From positions 558,001 to 622,000 of the forward strand of contig NW_020289982.1 in assembly GCF_003144245.1 (NCBI RefSeq): 64,000 nt of DNA, in the 5' to 3' direction. The notes under the pieces are model-generated. The model worked only from the letters and a program-made list of their open reading frames with translations. It ran no database searches and was not told the origin of the DNA. Numbering within the stretch: position 1 is the first letter of the stretch; each line of letters starts with the position of its first letter. The position numbers and the translations under genes were made by a program. This DNA comes from Jaminaea rosea. Lineage: Eukaryota; Basidiomycota; Exobasidiomycetes; Microstromatales. Positions 4,782 to 49,680 of this stretch are shown in pieces.

Positions 4782-5006
4782 TCGATTAGTCGTAGCGCAG
4801 TGATAAAAGGAAAGGTGTCACGTAGTGGAAGTCTGCTCAGTCTCTTCTGCTTCTCTTCTCATCTCTCTCATCGATCAATCTTCATTTCCGTTTCCTCTCT
4901 ATGCGATCGTCTGGCAACGAAGTCTGGTCACGCAAGACGTCTGTCTGTACAGCAAAGCGTTGGATTGTCTGACTTGATGTCTGCCGACGCGAGGCCCTCT
5001 GACTCT

Positions 5007-7786
5007 CTACGTGCCCGACGCGGTAGCAGGCCCCGTTGGCACACCCGCCATCGTTGCTCCACCGCCTCGAGATCCAGAGCTGCTTCTGTTGGCGTTGCGG
5101 AACTTCCCTCCCCCTCCCCTGCCTCTCCCCCGCCCCCTCCCAAAGCTAGACCCCGTACCATTCGTGGCACTACTGCTCCCCGTGGTACTGTAGCCTGCCG
5201 AATCTGGTCGCAGCCCTCCCCTACCCCTGCTGCTGCCACCGCGAGCCCCACCGGCACGAGGAAAGGGTGCAGCAGGAGGCAGAGCAAGGCTAGCAGTATC
5301 ACTGCTCCCACTGTGTGGCCTTGCCGGGAGATCGGTGAAGATACTGCCGCCTGGAGCATTGCCACCCCGACTCTTTCGTCCTCTACGCGATTTCTTTGCC
5401 TTTCCTGCTCCCTCACGTCCTGAGCCCAAACCCATGCCATCAAGCTCAACGTCCAGGTCAGAGCTGCTTAGCTCTGCAGCTAGCTTGGCAGCGAATGCCG
5501 CCCTGGCCTCTTCACTTGCTCCTCCCTCACCCTCTCCCTGAACGGCAGCCGCAGCAGCCGTAGCGGCGGCCACGCGTTTCTCGCGGCGCTCCACGCGCGC
5601 TTTCTCCTGCTCTTCTCGGCTCAGCGCCTCGACGTACTCATAAGGTAGGCAGAGCTGACTGAGCAGCAGTGGGCCAGGTGCAATGCCTGTGACTTCTCCC
5701 ACGGGTAAGTCCACAGATTCCTGCTTGATCGTGCCCTCCTCAATCATGCGCACCGCGCGCGAGAACTCAACGTCTATCCTGTCTGCCGGGACCCGGTGAA
5801 TGTTCTTTGCCGTGTTGCGATCCAGGATAAAAGGGTCCCGAATGACGATGCGGTCTGACTCCCATTCGAGGGGCTGATCGGGATCGTGATCCCTTGCGCG
5901 GGTGCGAGGAGCTTGCTCTGCGCCTGGAATGAGGAGCTGCTCGCCGTCTGACGACGATGAGGAGGCCGAGTCGGACGAAGAAGACTCACTAGCAGCAACC
6001 CCTCGCGGGATGCCGTCTCCCAGCCCGTTGGCTTCTTGCCAGGCACGACGAGTCTGGATGGTATTTGACTTGCGGGGGGCGCCGTGCTTGACGTCGATTA
6101 CGTAGTCTCGCTTGGACAGGGACGAGTACCATTGAATGAAGCCGATGAAGTCCCGACCGAGAGTCGTGATTGCGTCTTCGCCTGAAGCGTCTGTGCTTCG
6201 GTGTAGCCCTACGTCGGCCGTGCAGGGGAGATTGCCAAACTTCTCTGGATGAGCAGCCCGCTGCTGGTCCCATTGCTCTTTGTTGATTTCTTGTGCCAGA
6301 CGTCGTCCTTCTTCGTCCCCAGCGCGCAGGTAGTACGTCCAGCCGCCGTCTCTGATCCCGCGATGCTCGGCGAGCGAGGTGTCTAGGTAGGTGACGTCGT
6401 ACCTTGTTGCCTCTGGGCGCCGCGCGTCCGTGGTGGAGCCTGGACGAGGGTCCCCAGCACGGCGACGGGGTAGCTTTGGCGCGCGAAAGATGTAGTTGCG
6501 AGGGATACCCTGAGAGGCAAGAAGTGCATCATTCTGCAGTGAAGGGAGGAGTCGTTGGGTCTGTAAATATTGGATGACGCTGTCCGACCAGGCGAGGGAG
6601 AAAGATGTGAGCGCGAGTGTCATCACATGAACACGTCTTGCGTTTCGCACTCACAGCAGCACGATCGAGTAGCTGGAGAGACTGCTCCCCTGTCCTCCTT
6701 CTCCCGATGGATCATTGAGCTTCCTCCTCTTTAGCCAATGCTTGACGGCAAAGCACAGCGGCCTGAACGTCTGCTCCCTCAAAGTTGCATATGCCTTGAT
6801 CAGGCCTGAATTGTGCCTTCCGAATCTGTCGTTGACACTAATATCACCGCTCAGCCCCGTGTCGAGATCCTTGAATTTGACAATGGGGACATTTGCGCCC
6901 GTAATCGGGAAGACTTGGGTGAACAGAGGACGGCCCTGCCGGGATGGGCTTGCACCGCCGTAGCGACGTAGAGCCTTGGCCACGTTACGGACGTCGTACC
7001 ACGAGGGGAGGTCTTCATCATCGTCGGCGCCGTCCTCCTCGTCACTGAGCCCCGGTACGCGAACGCGAAGCTCGGGAGGTGTGCCGACGCCAAAGGGTCT
7101 ACTCGGGTCGAGGAGGGCGAGATCGATGTCTGATGTGGCGGTGACGATGCCAGTGACTGAAGAGCCAAAAGGTGCGATTTCGAGGGCGCAGCGAGGCCAG
7201 GCTTTGGTGATACAGGCCTGAACATCCCTGACGATCTTGCTGCGCTTTTCCTCTTGACGAGGGGAAGGACGGGTACTCTGATCGAAGCGAGAAGGGAGGT
7301 CCGTCAGCATCTCAGAGGCGCCGTAGGCATCATTCTCGCCTGCCCACTCACGTTCCAGTGCTGGGCCAATTGCCTGCCAAGTGACGCCTCAATAGTCTTG
7401 TCCTCACCCTGCAGGGCCCAATGACTGCACTCTTGCTCTTCTCGTTCGATTGTTCTCTGCCACTTTTGAATGATATCCTGTCTCATGCTGGCCTCATGCT
7501 CCCTCCTCTCTCTCCTCCTCTGCAACTCGGCCTCACGCCTGTGCTGTTGCTCGATCTCGCGCCTTTGGAGCTGCGCCTGTCGCTCGAGCGCGGGACCAGT
7601 GGGTGGCTGAGCACCCGGCGCTTGCGTCTCTCCCGTTTGCAGAACAGGGATCAGCTGCTGCGGAGGCAGGACCTGAATGTGATCTACTGGCCCTGCACCT
7701 TGCACCTCGGTCACCTGCTGTCGCGGGGCTTTTGGTTTTGGCTTAAAGCGCCGTGATGGCTGGCCGTCAGCGTTGGGCGTCGCCAT
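5007..7786 (-). CDS. Non-canonical poly(A) polymerase, Trf4/Cid14 type
   Basis: This is a nuclear nucleotidyltransferase that, as the catalytic part of a TRAMP-like complex, adds short A tails to aberrant RNAs for exosome decay. Exons on the minus strand are 7786-7352, 7277-6655 and 6579-5007, giving 876 residues. The catalytic core has FGSSVTG (Gly-Ser about 183-184), the paired aspartates of SDID (195 and 197) and the third at 290 in GDISVN. It is followed by SSYSIV...VIQYLQ of the helical domain and the PAP-associated region. The N-terminus (1-140) is Gln/Arg/Glu-rich and probably coiled coil. The C-terminus carries Ser-rich acid tracts and RGG-like repeats (GRGRGRGRGGGG), as in Trf4/Cid14 relatives. 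Introns are 74 and 75 nt. The first could also end 33 nt earlier, in frame. It is divergent from the XLF-like gene. Confidence 0.87.
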
Positions 7787-42219: not shown

Positions 42220-43728
42220 ATGACAGCCATCGACATGACAGCGTCCTCAGCGTGGTCATTCACCCTCGCTGCTACCCCAGCACTACTCAGCTATATCTTC
42301 GTAGCTCGAGTATCATGGGGCACGGCTGCTCGCGTATGGCACCTCCGCCGTATCGCCTTCATCTACGACGCTCAGCGACCCTTTGAGGCTACTGATCAGC
42401 AAGAGGCTGAGGATGTTGAACAGACCAAGAGTACAATGAAGCAGAAGCTGGCATTCTGTGCTATTTTCATGGCTGCCATCTTGGGCTACTTCCTAGTTGT
42501 ATTCGCGGCAATTCAGGGGAAACCTTTTGAGGCCCAACCTCTCAACATCTTGGTCCAGGCCATACCCTACCTCGGTGCTGCCACCGCGTCGTACTACGCC
42601 TCACTCGGCACGTACAAGCTCAGCTACGTCAACTCGAATCCTTCACGAGCCCTCTGCCGCAAACAGCACAAGGGCAAGGGCGAGGACCTTCTGCAAGTCG
42701 TCAAGACAAATCACGCCGACGATGGCACAGACACGCCCCCTCCTCGCATTCGCGTGGCTTCTGCTGTCGTTGCAAGCATCGTGGGATTGCTACTAGCCAG
42801 CATCCCTTACGGACCCTTGCTAGACTACACCTTCTTTGCCGTCGGCACTTGGTGTGCCGCTACTACCAGTGGCTTGCAAACGGCCGTCGGCTTTGCCATG
42901 TCCCTAGCCTTGTCGACGAAGCGCCCCTTCCGAGCTCTCGTGGTGCTCGTCTGTGCCATCTACACGCTCGGACTTTGCATCTCTGCCGCCCTCATTTTCT
43001 CCGGAGGCGACGACGGTGGCTCAAAGTCACACTCTACCAAGGAAGATCTCGACCTCTTCGGCGCCCCGGCCTTCATGCACGTCTCCAGCCTCATCTTCGC
43101 TTTCCACTACTTACAGACGACCGGCCTACTTCTCACACTACTGGCCATTGGCGCCCGCTTCGACATCGCTGTCAAGGCAGCGCAGCACGGCCGAAAGACG
43201 TACAACATCAGTCGCGAGATGGCAACAAGCGTTCTCGAGGAGAGTCGCTCTCTCTGTCGCCCTGTCAAGGGTGCAGACGGCAAGTTTCGCATTCCCATCG
43301 TCACGACGTCATATGCGCAAGCTTGCCCTCATGGTAAGCCGATGACGCTAGCCGATTCGACCACCTTCCGCGCCGGCCTCATCGTCTCTGCCGTCGTCTT
43401 CCTCTTCAGCGTCCCTCTGCACGAGTCCTCTGTCAACGTCATGACCCCTTCCGACGGCCGTCTCTTGCTCCTGTGGAACGTACCCGCTATCGCTGCAACC
43501 CCCTTCGCGGTGATCGTTATGATGTGGTCGGCGAGGAAGGCGCCTTTGAGCTTGTGGGGCTACGCCGAGGACTGGTCCGCACCCAAGGTTCCCAAGGCGG
43601 ATGAGGTCGATGAGACTGCGGAGGTTGCGAATTTGCTGGGTGAGGCCGAGGCAGGACAGGGAGAAAAGGAGGGGATGTGGTTGAGGGAGGACTGGGATTG
43701 CGACGGAGAGTGGAGCGAGAAGTGGTAG
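42220..43728 (+). CDS. Orphan multi-pass membrane protein
   Basis: A single exon encodes 502 residues that I do not recognise. About nine hydrophobic segments are visible, near residues 11-33, 73-97, 108-130, 180-200, 208-232, 237-260, 287-310, 388-407 and 428-447. Between segments 7 and 8 lies a polar loop of about 75 residues (KAAQHGRKTYNISREM onward), and the last 50 residues are acidic (WLREDWDCDGEWSEKW at the end). There is no transporter signature, no GPCR motif and no cleavable signal. Composition and codon use match the neighbours. It might be a fungal lineage-specific receptor-like or channel-like protein, but no function can be claimed. Confidence 0.75.
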   Translation: MTAIDMTASSAWSFTLAATPALLSYIFVARVSWGTAARVWHLRRIAFIYDAQRPFEATDQQEAEDVEQTKSTMKQKLAFCAIFMAAILGYFLVVFAAIQGKPFEAQPLNILVQAIPYLGAATASYYASLGTYKLSYVNSNPSRALCRKQHKGKGEDLLQVVKTNHADDGTDTPPPRIRVASAVVASIVGLLLASIPYGPLLDYTFFAVGTWCAATTSGLQTAVGFAMSLALSTKRPFRALVVLVCAIYTLGLCISAALIFSGGDDGGSKSHSTKEDLDLFGAPAFMHVSSLIFAFHYLQTTGLLLTLLAIGARFDIAVKAAQHGRKTYNISREMATSVLEESRSLCRPVKGADGKFRIPIVTTSYAQACPHGKPMTLADSTTFRAGLIVSAVVFLFSVPLHESSVNVMTPSDGRLLLLWNVPAIAATPFAVIVMMWSARKAPLSLWGYAEDWSAPKVPKADEVDETAEVANLLGEAEAGQGEKEGMWLREDWDCDGEWSEKW

Positions 43729-45181: not shown

Positions 45182-47196
45182 TTACGCATCGTCGCCCTCG
45201 ATCTCGTCGTCATCATCGAACTCGCCGAGGATCCAATCAAGGCTCGTACGCCCTCCTTGACCGTCTTCGTCCTCTTCTTCTTCCTCTTCTTCGTAGTGCC
45301 CTTGCCTCCTATCCTCGTCTGCCTCTTGCTCTTCGTCGACCTCTTCCTCGTCCGTCTCATCCCGGGTATCCTCGATCTCCTCCTCATAACCCTCGAGCCA
45401 CCGCCTCTTTCGCGTCATGCCTGGCACACCAGCGTCTTGATCGGCAACTCTGACAAACTTGAGTCCACGAATTCGGGTGAGCAATTCGTGGAGGACCGTG
45501 TCGTCCAGACTCTCTCTTCGCAGGTGATTGAGCGGCACGCAGAGGAAGCGGACGCTACCGTCCTCGTACGGCTTGTCGGAGTTGGTGCGGTCCAGGCTCA
45601 TGGTTGAGAACGGCAGCGTGGCCCCAGACCGGTCGCAGCAGAGGCCGCCGCCGAGGCTTGCGTCTGTGGCCAACTTGAAGACGTGGCCAAAGGTAAGGTG
45701 GCCATCCTTCCTTGGGTCGCGCTTGCCGATGTTTTTGGCCCTGCGGATTGCCGCCCGTGCCCAGCCCCTGTAAGACGATGGGTGTCAGGCGGTTCCGTTC
45801 CGTGTCCGCGTCCTCTCCGCCCTCTTCCGTCTCACCTTCTGTAATCTCCTCTCTCCTCCCTTCTTTTCCTTAGAATTTGATACACTTAGCTTGAGTCGTT
45901 ACAATGGGCGGATAGGGTACGTTGCGGGATTAGCGACGGCTCATCATGGGGACTGCACCTTGCCTCACCTCTCAATCTTGTCCCCCGCAGCGCCCAAAGC
46001 GGGCGAAGCTGCCTCCGAGTCCACGCCCGCAGCGATCCAGATCTTATCACCTGAACTCAGCAAGTGCGAAGCGTCGGCGAACGCCTGGAATAGATGCCTC
46101 GCCGTCGACTCAGGGTAGCCGCTTTTGATGAAATTGCAGCCCAGGCAGCATGGTCTGTTTGTGACGGGGTCGTATATTGTACCCGGAACGATGCGGTCCG
46201 GCGAGAAGTTTGTCGAGGTGACCCCGACGCCCTTTGGATGCTTCTTGCCCTTGGTGTCTTTCCTCGCTCGTCGCTCGAAGGTCAATTCCACCCCGCACAG
46301 ATAACAAAAGGCGTCGTTCTCGACGGCGAAGAGCAGCGTCATCTCGAACAGCCTCTGGACCTCCTTCTCATGCCTGCCAGGGTCCTCGTTCCGCTTCTTG
46401 GAGGTCCGGTTCACGGCTTGCCTCGCCCACTCTTTGAGGAACTTGCGCTTTCCCTGCCAACGGACACTCTTCTCGCCGGCCTTCTCCGGATTGTCCCTCT
46501 TCCAACGCAGAAAGATCTCACCGGCCGCAGCGGACTCTTTGCGCATCCGTCTGAAGTCCTTTCTGGTAAAGACGTCGCGAATGCGCGTCTTGCGGACGCT
46601 GCGCTTGCCCTCCGCCCACCGCACGATCAGCTGCGCCAACTCCTGCTTGTCGAAAGCCAGAAGCCACCACATCTTCACCTGCTTGAATGAGTAAGTAAAA
46701 ATTGCCGTGCTGATGTGGCGGAGAATCCAGATTCCGTAGACCGCCTTGATGGTCCCGATCCGATCGACGTGCTCCAAAATAGTCTTGCGCAGTGTTTCCA
46801 GCTTTGGCAGGGCGTCTCGCACGCACTGGTCGTGACTATGCTGGTATCCACGAGGCACGTACGGGCTGCCCACGGGGAATAGGAAGTCGGGGAACACGGC
46901 GCCCGCGGACAGCTCGAACTGACGGAGCTCGACCTGCTCAAGCACTCGCTCGACGGTATCGTGCAGGGGGCACAGCCTCATCTGCGAGGTACTGGTAGTC
47001 GGAGGGGGGGGGGGGGTTGCAAATGGCAAAGGCGGGTGGAAGGTCAGTGCGAGACCGAGGCTGGGTGCCCGCCCGGATCATCACCTACCTCGCGGATCGC
47101 GATGTCGAGGTCAAGAGACTTGGCGGCCTGCACAATTTCTTGCGCCTGTCGCTCGTGGCCCACAGACTGCCAGCTGAGGGTCGTACAGCCGAGCAT
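45182..47196 (-). CDS. Putative double HNH/endonuclease VII-like nuclease
   Basis: Exons 47196-47089, 46981-45969 and 45767-45182 (introns 107 and 201 nt, both longer than typical here) encode 568 residues in one frame. Module 1 has C-x2-C at 262-265 (FCYLCGVEL), FSPDRIVPGTIYDP at 295-308 and CCLGCNFIKSGY with Cys 314, 315 and 318. This is the zinc-finger-plus-DR pattern of HNH/endonuclease VII folds. Module 2, mostly from exon 3, repeats it in weaker form: GLCCDRSGATLPF (417-418), MSLDRTNSDKPYEDG (430-444) and VRFLCVPLNHLRRES, with Cys450 and Asn454. The N-terminal 240 residues are helical and basic, without a known domain; the C-terminus is a 70-residue Asp/Glu tail. The start is the first ATG in the open frame, which itself extends upstream. 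Nuclease activity is inferred from pattern only. Confidence 0.62.
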
Positions 47197-47369
47197 TTCG
47201 GCCCAGGAGGACGCGGCCTTCGTCGTGAGCCAAGGGCGGACCCAGTCCCTCCACTGCGTGTTGAGCTTTGGTTCGGCTCGACTAGCCTGCGCTCAGACCC
47301 CTTCTTTGCCCTTATCTGGTCTCTTGAGCTCGAGTCTGTATCTCCTTCAGCTTCCTCCTTTTTGATCCG

Positions 47370-48428
47370 TCACTTTGAATCGACGTGCTTCACATTACTT
47401 TGCGTTGCTGACGCGTCGCCACCGTCAAGCGTGGACTTGATGAAGATGAGCTGCAGCGCTGCGTTCTGACGGCAGTATCGCAGCAGCAGAAAGGTCGGCA
47501 TATCATCGAGGTGCTGACGAACTACGTGGGTGTCGTCGTAGCGCCTGCGTAGCAGGGGAGTCAGTCCGGACACTGTAGACTTCGCAGAAGAGTCAGTGCT
47601 GCTCACCAGAAGTACACCAGCTTGTTCTGCGGCAACGACGCGAGTTGCAGCTGGTCGACAGTGAGGCCGCGGTCCGTCAAGTCCTTGCCACAGCCTCGAA
47701 GCGTCCGAGCAATGGCGTCGCCAATGTCGCCATTCATGAGACGTCGGACCCACTTCTTCGGCTTCGAACCGGCGCAGGCTGCTTCCTCGCTGCCGACCCC
47801 TTGGGCGTGGGCGTGGACCAGGCGCGACAGGTATCCTGCGCGCGGGCTGATCTCTTCGAGCTCCTCCTCGGCATCTTCTACCGTCATAGTCATGTCGTAT
47901 GCACTCGTGACGGTCGGGCGGGGGGAGCTGGACCCTCGCTGGGTTCGGTCGCGAGCGCTCTGCCTGGCCCTCTTGCGAGCTTTCTTGGCAGCCCTGTGTG
48001 TACGCAAAGTATGCTCTGGAGCGTCAGTTTGTGTCATGAGCAGTGATGCACGCAGCTCGCTCACTTGCGAGCGCCGGCGAGAATGAACTCGTTGAGCGAG
48101 GAGATCGACACATCGCTTGCGGTGTCGAGGTCGACCTCATCCTCACTCTGAGGACGAGCAACTCTGTCGAAGTCACGGAGCGGCAAGCTGTGAATCAGTT
48201 TTCCCGCCGTCTTGGCCCTTTGGCCACTGCCACTGACCTGTCTGCCTGCCTGAGGTCGCCCTTGGCCGCTCTGACCACCGACCTGGCGCACTGCGTCAAA
48301 GCCTTCTTGCGAGATTGCTTGACAAAGTCGTGGTTTGCCCCTGAGGCGCTGTTGCCGCTGGTACCCGCGTTGTATACGGTGGCGGCTGCGATGCTGAGAG
48401 CAGCGAGCCGGTCGACAAGGCTTGACAT
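47370..48428 (-). CDS. Orphan protein upstream of the HNH-type gene
   Basis: Four exons (48428-48238, 48187-48065, 47993-47607, 47544-47370; introns of 50, 71 and 62 nt) join in frame to give 291 residues, which supports a real gene. I do not recognise the product. The N-terminus is Ser/Ala-rich (MSSLVDRLAALSIAAATVYN), the middle is basic (AAKKARKRARQSARDRTQR) and then acidic (VEDAEEELEEISP). The C-terminal half looks folded: KKWVRRLMNGDIGDAIARTL, VDQLQLASLPQNKLVYFW, then RYDDTHVVRQHLDDMPTFLLLRYC. It ends 173 bp before the start of the HNH-type gene on the same strand. Joining the two into one gene was considered, but no good splice connects them. The first intron (50 nt, gtcagt donor) is the least certain. 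Confidence 0.55.
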
Positions 48429-48594
48429 GTTTATTTGTTGGTGAGTTGTGTTGGTGGGGCTTCGTTCTCAACGGGCGACGGGTAGGCGATTGACGACAAT
48501 CAGGGTTGGTAGTGTTGGTTGCAACGGAAAGAGCGGCGGGGGTCTTCTCAACCGACTATGCCCGTCCCTAAGTGGGGCGTACCGCTCGAGCGGA

Positions 48595-48761
48595 GCCCAG
48601 ATAGGTCGTGAGTGTGCGCGTGCTCATGAAGCAGGTACTGGGGTGCCCACAGGAATGAGGAAGTCCGGGAAGACGGCGTCGGCAGACAGCTCGAACTGCC
48701 CGCGCTCTACCCGCTCAAGCACCCGCTAGACGGCCTCGTGCAGGGGACCCAGCGCAGGCAT
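48595..48761 (-). pseudogene. Decayed fragment of the HNH-type gene (N-terminal part)
   Basis: The minus strand carries a degraded copy of the start of exon 2 of the intact gene at 45182-47196: it keeps PLHE, then RVLERVE, QFELSA, VFPDFL and PVGTPVP against PLHDTVERVLEQVE, QFELSAGAVFPDFLFPVGSPYVP. Similarity fades near 48595. It is a short, broken fragment with no room for a functional product. Confidence 0.75.
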
Positions 48762-48799: not shown

Positions 48800-49680
48800 A
48801 CGATGAAGAGTCTTTGAAATTCCGCTGGCCGGAGCAGAGGCCTCATGACGCTTGAAGCCAGTCCTGCTTGCCGCCTCTCCGCACCAGCCCTTGACGAAGC
48901 TGCGCTTATTCAACCAATTCGTCCTCTGCTTTGCTACCTTCTCTGGGCTCTTCTCCCTCCACTGCCTCCACCTCTTGCCCTCTTCTTTGCATCATTCCTG
49001 CATGGTGTTGATATCTTGGCGAACCAAGAGGTGCTTGTTCCTTGTGCTACACACAGCCCGCCCACTCTCCGCCCACCTGACCAGCTGAGTGCCGAGGGCG
49101 GGCTTCATGAAGGCTACCAGCCAAGCGACTCTGAATGGCTTTGCATTGTACGCCAGCATGGTGAATAGCAAATGGCGGAGGCGCCATGCTGTGTGCACCT
49201 GGCATACGACCCGCACTCTGTCTCCAGCGGGGAGTGATGATTGCAAAGACTAATCGCTGCCCAAATTGCCTTGTTGAGGTCGACATGCTCGGCAGCAGTC
49301 ACAGCGCGCAGTGCCTTATCCAAGGCTTCAGCCTCAGCAGCTCGTTCTGCGTCCTGAACTTCCCGCTCGACACCTCCGCTGACTCCTTGGTAAACCGGTT
49401 CGTGACGCGAGAATACCATTGGCGGCCCGCGGGGATGTTGTGACCGAGTGATCTTGCCTTCATGACGGTCTTCTGCAGCTCCAAAGTGCGCTTGCAGTAG
49501 GCCATCGTGATGTCCGTGAACATGGCGGCCATCTTGTTGAAAGTCGGCGATGACGCTGGTGGATCTCTTCGACTTCTCCGAGTCACTCCCGCTTCCCCTC
49601 GATGTACGAGAAGAGGCTTGACTGCCTTCCTCTCCCGGATCGGCTCTGTGGGACGGCCGCGAAGGCAAGTAAGCGCCATG
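48800..49680 (-). pseudogene. Decayed second copy of the HNH-type gene (helical N-terminal region)
   Basis: Going down the minus strand, segments matching the intact gene in order are: an AEHVDLNKAIWAAI-like stretch (against LEHVDRIGTIKAVYGI), then RHLLFTMLAYNAKPFRVAWLVAF and QLVRWAES near 49160-49040 (against RHISTAIFTYSFKQVKMWWLLAF and QLIVRWAEG), then KRSFVKGW...SRTGFKRHE near 48900 (against KRKFLKEW...NRTSKKRNE). Neither zinc module is found. The part above about 49450 is related only weakly. The copy is broken and old, judging by protein identity near 40%. Confidence 0.65.

Follow-up and report, generated by a model that had tools for sequence, protein, structure and literature searches.

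A scattered gene family of Jaminaea rosea encoding a putative two-site protein with PacI-like HNH modules

INTRODUCTION

HNH enzymes that break both strands of DNA usually pair two identical chains, and T4 endonuclease VII also pairs two chains. PacI and Hpy99I are both described as homodimers in PMC4081073. A gene of the fungus Jaminaea rosea raises the question of whether two such sites may instead be carried by a single chain. It lies in a stretch of 64,000 nucleotides (contig NW_020289982.1, positions 558,001 to 622,000), which was analysed as a whole and is referred to below as the window. The first-pass annotation, made from the sequence alone, had noted two patterns of Cys, Asp-Arg and Asn residues in one 568-residue reading and had taken them for modules of the HNH or endonuclease VII type. 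Here we ask whether the two patterns belong to one gene, whether they are HNH modules and of which kind, and whether the protein is likely to be a nuclease.

RESULTS

Gene structure and motifs

The 568 codons and a stop were read from three joined exons on the minus strand. Both introns run from GT to AG, the splice signals being taken from the sequence. The exons, and the parts of the protein discussed below, are as follows.

47089 to 47196, minus strand: exon 1, 108 nt, residues 1-36; start as in the first-pass annotation, with the frame open further upstream
45969 to 46981, minus strand: exon 2, 1013 nt, with GT..AG borders; helical N-terminal region and module 1 (Cys4, D-R, N)
45182 to 45767, minus strand: exon 3, 586 nt; module 2 and acidic tail
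46025 to 46378, minus strand: module 1 stretch as folded, residues 238-355, with C262, C265, D298, R299, C315, C318 and N319
45410 to 45766, minus strand: module 2 stretch as folded, residues 375-493, with C417/C418, D433, R434 and N454; Cys-poor viral type
45182 to 45424, minus strand: acidic tail, last 80 residues, 39 Asp/Glu against 8 Lys/Arg, with a basic TRKRR at its start

As had been claimed, the three predicted exons join and both patterns lie in the one reading. The motifs are C262-x2-C265, S296-P-D298-R299 and C315-x2-C318-N319 in module 1 and C417/C418, S431-L-D433-R434, C450 and N454 in module 2. A related copy on contig C15 has both modules in one open frame, which supports the joining of exon 2 to exon 3 in the window. 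Regular expressions for the modules, composed after inspection of the sequence, were run on all six frames of the window and gave one match for module 1 and four for module 2, overlapping starts included. In 60 first-order Markov simulations of the window neither expression occurred.

Paralogues in the same genome

The gene is a member of a scattered, fast-changing, multi-copy family. Five family queries were searched against the 16.6-Mb genome and the fetched stretches were then read, giving, by eye, 14 copies at 13 places, i.e. 13 copies in addition to that in the window. These counts are lower bounds, the search scoring the best candidates alone. The family copies include some matches that are weak, with E from 0.001 to 0.1, and that were accepted because their motifs are in place. 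A candidate on C3 (L059), in which no motif was seen, was dropped. By contig, the copies are found on C8 (the window), C7 (two), C17, C9 (two in tandem), C15, C6, C5 (two), C10 (three) and C19.

Traces of both modules were visible in 12 of the 14 copies, with module 1 alone in the C10 copy near 110 kb and in the C19 copy. Among the matches listed, pairwise identity between copies is 25-53%. In the four copies measured, one of which crosses a stop, the distance from the last residue of the module-1 zinc knuckle to the Asp of module 2 is 114-122 residues. The acidic tail and a helical N-terminal region are present in several copies. By eye the N-terminal region had appeared to be present in all of them; BLAST of seven stretches, with E-values of 7e-15 to 4e-8, backed a common region in C9a, C9b and one of the C10 copies, whereas the support for the window was weak (E 0.003 with C9a). 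Stop codons are found in several copies, and the D or R of module 1 is altered in five of the 12 readable ones (C7 at 379 kb, C17, C6, and C10 at 413 and 110 kb). In module 2, the Asp is altered as well in the C10 copy at 413 kb, and Asn replaces it in the first C9 copy.

Sequence and profile comparisons

No Pfam or NCBIfam model matched the 568-residue protein. Against the Pfam HNH models, a comparison proposed in the first-pass annotation, the window protein had no match; a genome search with PF01844 found three places, two of them above the cut-off and none at the family loci. As a single sequence against the PDB, the protein gave a best E of 1.2, with ribosomal L24 chains leading and a Cap5 chain overlapping module 1 at 1.6. 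Searches with it found no relative in the viral contigs or the prokaryote genomes, and its eight phage records were at E 0.4 or worse. Scans of the viral contigs with a C5 copy and the C15 copy as queries also found no relatives. The HNH signals described below were obtained via paralogues and profiles, the window protein itself giving little as a query.

The profiles of the two modules matched each other (hhalign 92%, E 6.5e-7). Ten viral-contig proteins were matched by the module 2 profile at E 8.9e-10 and by the module 1 profile at E 4.8e-8. A second set, of five proteins with the Cys4 arrangement, was matched by module 1 at E 5.2e-7 and more weakly by module 2 at 2.8e-4. All five profile comparisons scored above 60 out of 60 column shuffles; L081, with a broken frame, had been left out of the viral alignment.

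Family copies also matched the PHROG families named endonuclease, HNH endonuclease and endonuclease VII, the best match being that of a C5 copy at 5.4e-11. The window protein matched the endonuclease VII family phrog_1035 at E 0.0014; its module 1 alone reached 0.018 at best among PHROG endonucleases and its module 2 alone matched no PHROG endonuclease family at E 1 or better. PHROG families labelled ‘Srd anti-sigma factor’ and ‘decoy of host sigma70’ were weakly matched. Phage records matched by a C5 module at E 1 or better number 64, the best of them at 4e-5, and in 30 the match spans at least 80% of the module; among the 25 matches listed out of these 64 there are 12 endonucleases, eight hypothetical proteins, three unannotated proteins, one Srd decoy and one anti-termination protein. 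In a single comparison, exon 3 of the window and a phage protein annotated as PacI-like HNH were 36% identical over a stretch of 56 residues (E 1e-8).

When the module profiles were searched against the PDB, PacI was the top match for module 1 (E 0.032) and the second for module 2 (E 0.065), behind an unrelated HisF chain, and D-R...N was aligned in both cases. Neither the PDB profile searches nor the Foldseek searches described below gave an E-value at 0.001 or better. The profiles show homology between the two modules, and between both of them and viral endonuclease-like families. Homology to the HNH/His-Me finger superfamily appears at profile level only, in the PHROG matches and in the viral relatives with their shuffle control.

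The profile relatives also bear on the nature of module 2, in which the first-pass annotation had seen a zinc site that was partly lost. Among the ten viral-contig relatives, a module with few Cys and with D-R, Y and N is the rule. Module 2, which retains D, R, Y and N in the window, is therefore more plausibly of this viral type than a decayed zinc module, and the idea of decay was rejected. Module 2 of the family shows the combination that marks phage SLDRID-type proteins, i.e. few Cys with D-R, Y and N.

Predicted folds

AlphaFold2 was run on the exon pieces together with viral rows, which may impose the fold. A strand-strand-helix arrangement was predicted for module 1 (pLDDT 70, pTM 0.58, nine other rows) and for module 2 (pLDDT 75, pTM 0.58, 12 other rows), with D-R in or at the first strand and N in the helix in both models. 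The core for which structure prediction had been proposed as a check was predicted at both module positions, with the viral rows in the input. Foldseek with module 1 gave PacI, Cap5 (five chains), McrA and Gme HNH (two chains) as its best nine rows, and with module 2 it gave Gme HNH (three chains), a Cas9 and PacI as its best five, with E above 0.01 throughout these rows. Cas9, Cap5 and McrA all contain HNH domains. Later rows are unrelated proteins, e.g. SAMHD1 and ribosomal proteins. The predicted folds of both modules best resemble HNH (ββα-metal) enzymes. The HNH-like reading of both stretches is thereby backed by the family profiles and by the predicted fold.

The active sites

Classic members of the endonuclease VII family have Asp-His at the active site. 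The HNH histidine was found in none of the eight module-1 rows of alignment A3 and in none of the nine module-2 rows of alignment A4, from which intron-split or too broken copies had been left out, and there is no Asp-His in these rows. Where the classic HNH or endonuclease VII site has a catalytic His beside the metal-binding Asp, both modules have Asp-Arg. The pairing of Asp-Arg with Asn that is characteristic of the PacI type is present in both (D298-R299/N319 and D433-R434/N454) and is aligned to PacI. In A4, D is conserved in eight of nine rows, R and Y in all nine and N in seven. In the window copy, D, R and N are intact in both modules and the Cys4 set is intact in module 1. The earlier assignment to an endonuclease VII/HNH type is supported as to HNH-like; the named structure indicated by both modules is PacI, with D-R and no HNH histidine, more than T4 endonuclease VII.

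According to PMC4081073, PacI is active with its D-R motif, PacI and Hpy99I each hold a single metal bound by Asp and Asn side chains, and the base is usually His in HNH enzymes, whereas PacI has a Tyr positioned for this role. By analogy, each intact module would bind one divalent metal via Asp (298, 433) and Asn (319, 454). Arg would occupy the usual place of the HNH histidine, as in PacI, and another residue (Tyr in PacI) would act as the base. With two sites per chain, a monomer could cut both DNA strands without pairing.

The 5' end and the surroundings of the gene

Four features lie upstream of exon 1.

47259 to 47399, minus strand: solo-LTR-like repeat, 141 bp, flanked by CGCAA/CGCAG; breaks an older open frame
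47607 to 48064, minus strand: upstream open frame, perhaps an exon that the gene had before the insertion; no Pfam match
48576 to 48755, minus strand: disrupted copy of the beginning of exon 2, 53% identical, 2 stops
48839 to 49234, minus strand: disrupted copy of a section further into exon 2, 34% identical, 1 stop; upstream of the preceding piece

The order of the last two pieces indicates that this copy has been rearranged. The genome contains 28 matches to the 141-bp repeat, several of them no more than 20 kb from the end of a contig, and copies are located in the window and in L099-L105, L016, L017, L018 and L053. It was termed solo-LTR-like because 11 of the 13 copies read begin with T before GTAATG-like letters and because of the flanking 5-bp duplications, which are exact in four of 13 and agree in at least four of five letters in eight of 13; the ends are T..CA. 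An intron-like element was considered and rejected given these ends and the short flanking duplications, and GT..AG splicing would shift the frame in the window.

When the repeat was excised and its flanks joined, one frame was open for 124 codons to the exon-1 donor, whereas with the repeat present none extends beyond 93. The restored frame suggests that the gene had a longer 5' part, which a solo-LTR-like insertion probably interrupted. In the earlier gene model the predicted exon joins are supported and the N-terminus is uncertain, the frame being open upstream of the ATG and the repeat lying at 47399-47259.

The repeat is also found near four of the 12 other family loci, where 0.12 would be expected in 73.5 kb (Poisson P 8e-6). 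Without L017, one of the two loci where the repeat was first noticed, the figures are three of 11 loci with 0.10 expected (P 2e-4). As read by eye, the repeat precedes the gene in all four loci and has the same orientation. At least some of the family thus occupies DNA that is rich in repeats and prone to change.

Several neighbouring frames were noted in passing. L106, between two repeat copies, was considered as a whole LTR retrotransposon and rejected: no reverse transcriptase was seen in the listed frames and the longest has no Pfam match. A 747-residue frame between the two repeats (L106:1347-3587, minus strand) includes a stretch that looks GIY-YIG-like by eye, VYIFVG...VYGGRTGWQ..R..EH, with no GIY-YIG-type match in Pfam or PHROGs. 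On the same strand and 3' of both C5 copies there are OTU-protease-like stretches (L055:3403-3987 and L019:about 5000-5250, in reverse-complement coordinates), with GDGxCQxRA and, in L055, GVGHY; the only Pfam match was Peptidase_C65 at 0.014, in one of the two. In the C5 copies the HNH modules are perhaps fused with an OTU domain. Beside the C6 copy are long frames with low-complexity stretches (L018:about 5071-6999, reverse-complement coordinates), one of more than 300 residues. The window itself has an adjoining 502-residue frame at 42220-43728 (plus strand) with several hydrophobic stretches, perhaps a membrane protein.

DISCUSSION

On balance, we consider it somewhat more likely than not that the gene belongs to a two-site, PacI-like HNH protein family, in which a Cys4 module is followed by a Cys-poor viral-type module in one chain, and that the product is a putative nuclease. 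We infer nuclease activity of the protein. The first-pass annotation knew of no named family with this double layout; it is absent from Pfam and NCBIfam, and no description of a double-module layout was found in searches of the open-licence PMC literature.

Known systems each share part of this arrangement. PacI (PDB 3LDY, 3M7K) has D-R...N aligned in both module profiles and is among the best fold matches of both. It differs in being, according to PMC4081073, a homodimer of a 142-residue chain with one catalytic module, whereas the fungal protein has two modules in a longer chain, and in having two zinc motifs where the fungal protein has one visible Cys4 set, module 2 being without. The phage ‘SLDRID’ endonuclease-like proteins (phrog_3322, phrog_3118, Xanthomonas phage XacN1 ORF457 and a protein of Podoviridae sp. 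ctYwJ313) resemble fungal module 2 in their Cys-poor layout and in D-R, Y and N (5.4e-11 with a C5 copy) but are short, single-module viral proteins of about 110-190 residues. The phage endonuclease VII family (phrog_1035) shares the order of the Cys4 module and is matched by the window protein, as given above; it differs from the fungal protein, which has Asp-Arg and no Pfam match. The nuclear His-Cys box nucleases I-PpoI and KolobokP are also eukaryotic His-Me finger nucleases, and KolobokP is found in repeat DNA (PMC9587614). They have a catalytic His and His/Cys zinc boxes and reside in group I introns or transposons, whereas the fungal family has Asp-Arg and intron-bearing genes.

Three other explanations must be weighed against that of a two-site nuclease. 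The serious rival, though we think it rather unlikely, is an HNH fold without nuclease activity, the modules now only binding nucleic acid or protein as regulators or decoys, and the family drifting under weak constraint. The absence of the HNH histidine from the A3 and A4 rows, the alteration of the module 1 D or R in five of 12 readable copies, the stops in several copies, the annotation of one viral relative as an Srd decoy and another as an anti-termination protein, and the weak PHROG matches to Srd anti-sigma factor and sigma70 decoy all point in this direction. Against it, PacI, to which both modules are aligned, is active with D-R (PMC4081073). Neither module of the window copy has lost D, R or N, and its module 1 retains the Cys4 set; the high conservation of D, R, Y and N in A4 likewise argues against a non-nuclease role.

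The remaining two explanations carry less weight. The window copy might be a dying gene, disrupted at its 5' end and no longer yielding a product, whatever the role of the other family members. The 141-bp solo-LTR-like insertion does break the upstream 124-codon open frame, and broken pieces of a related copy adjoin, but beyond the insertion 1707 nt of coding sequence continue through three exons without a stop, the splice signals are good and neither site is damaged, and we regard this as quite improbable. That both patterns are chance motifs unrelated to HNH enzymes would agree with the lack of a Pfam or NCBIfam match and with a single-sequence PDB search that gave nothing below E 1.2 and was led by ribosomal L24 chains. 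This explanation is largely refuted by the paralogues, the shuffle-controlled profile matches, the viral relatives and the predicted folds, and its probability is very small.

Returning to the two-site, PacI-like protein, a fuller and more speculative account, which we think unlikely as it stands, is that in a fungal lineage two kinds of phage-type HNH module were fused into a single-chain, two-site PacI-like nuclease that expanded as a rapidly diverging family in repeat-rich DNA and has a selfish or genome-defence role, acting on DNA. One chain with two different HNH modules would add a new architecture to those of eukaryotic nuclear nucleases, and the family would be a case of phage-type modules established in a fungus and multiplied within one genome, outside Pfam.
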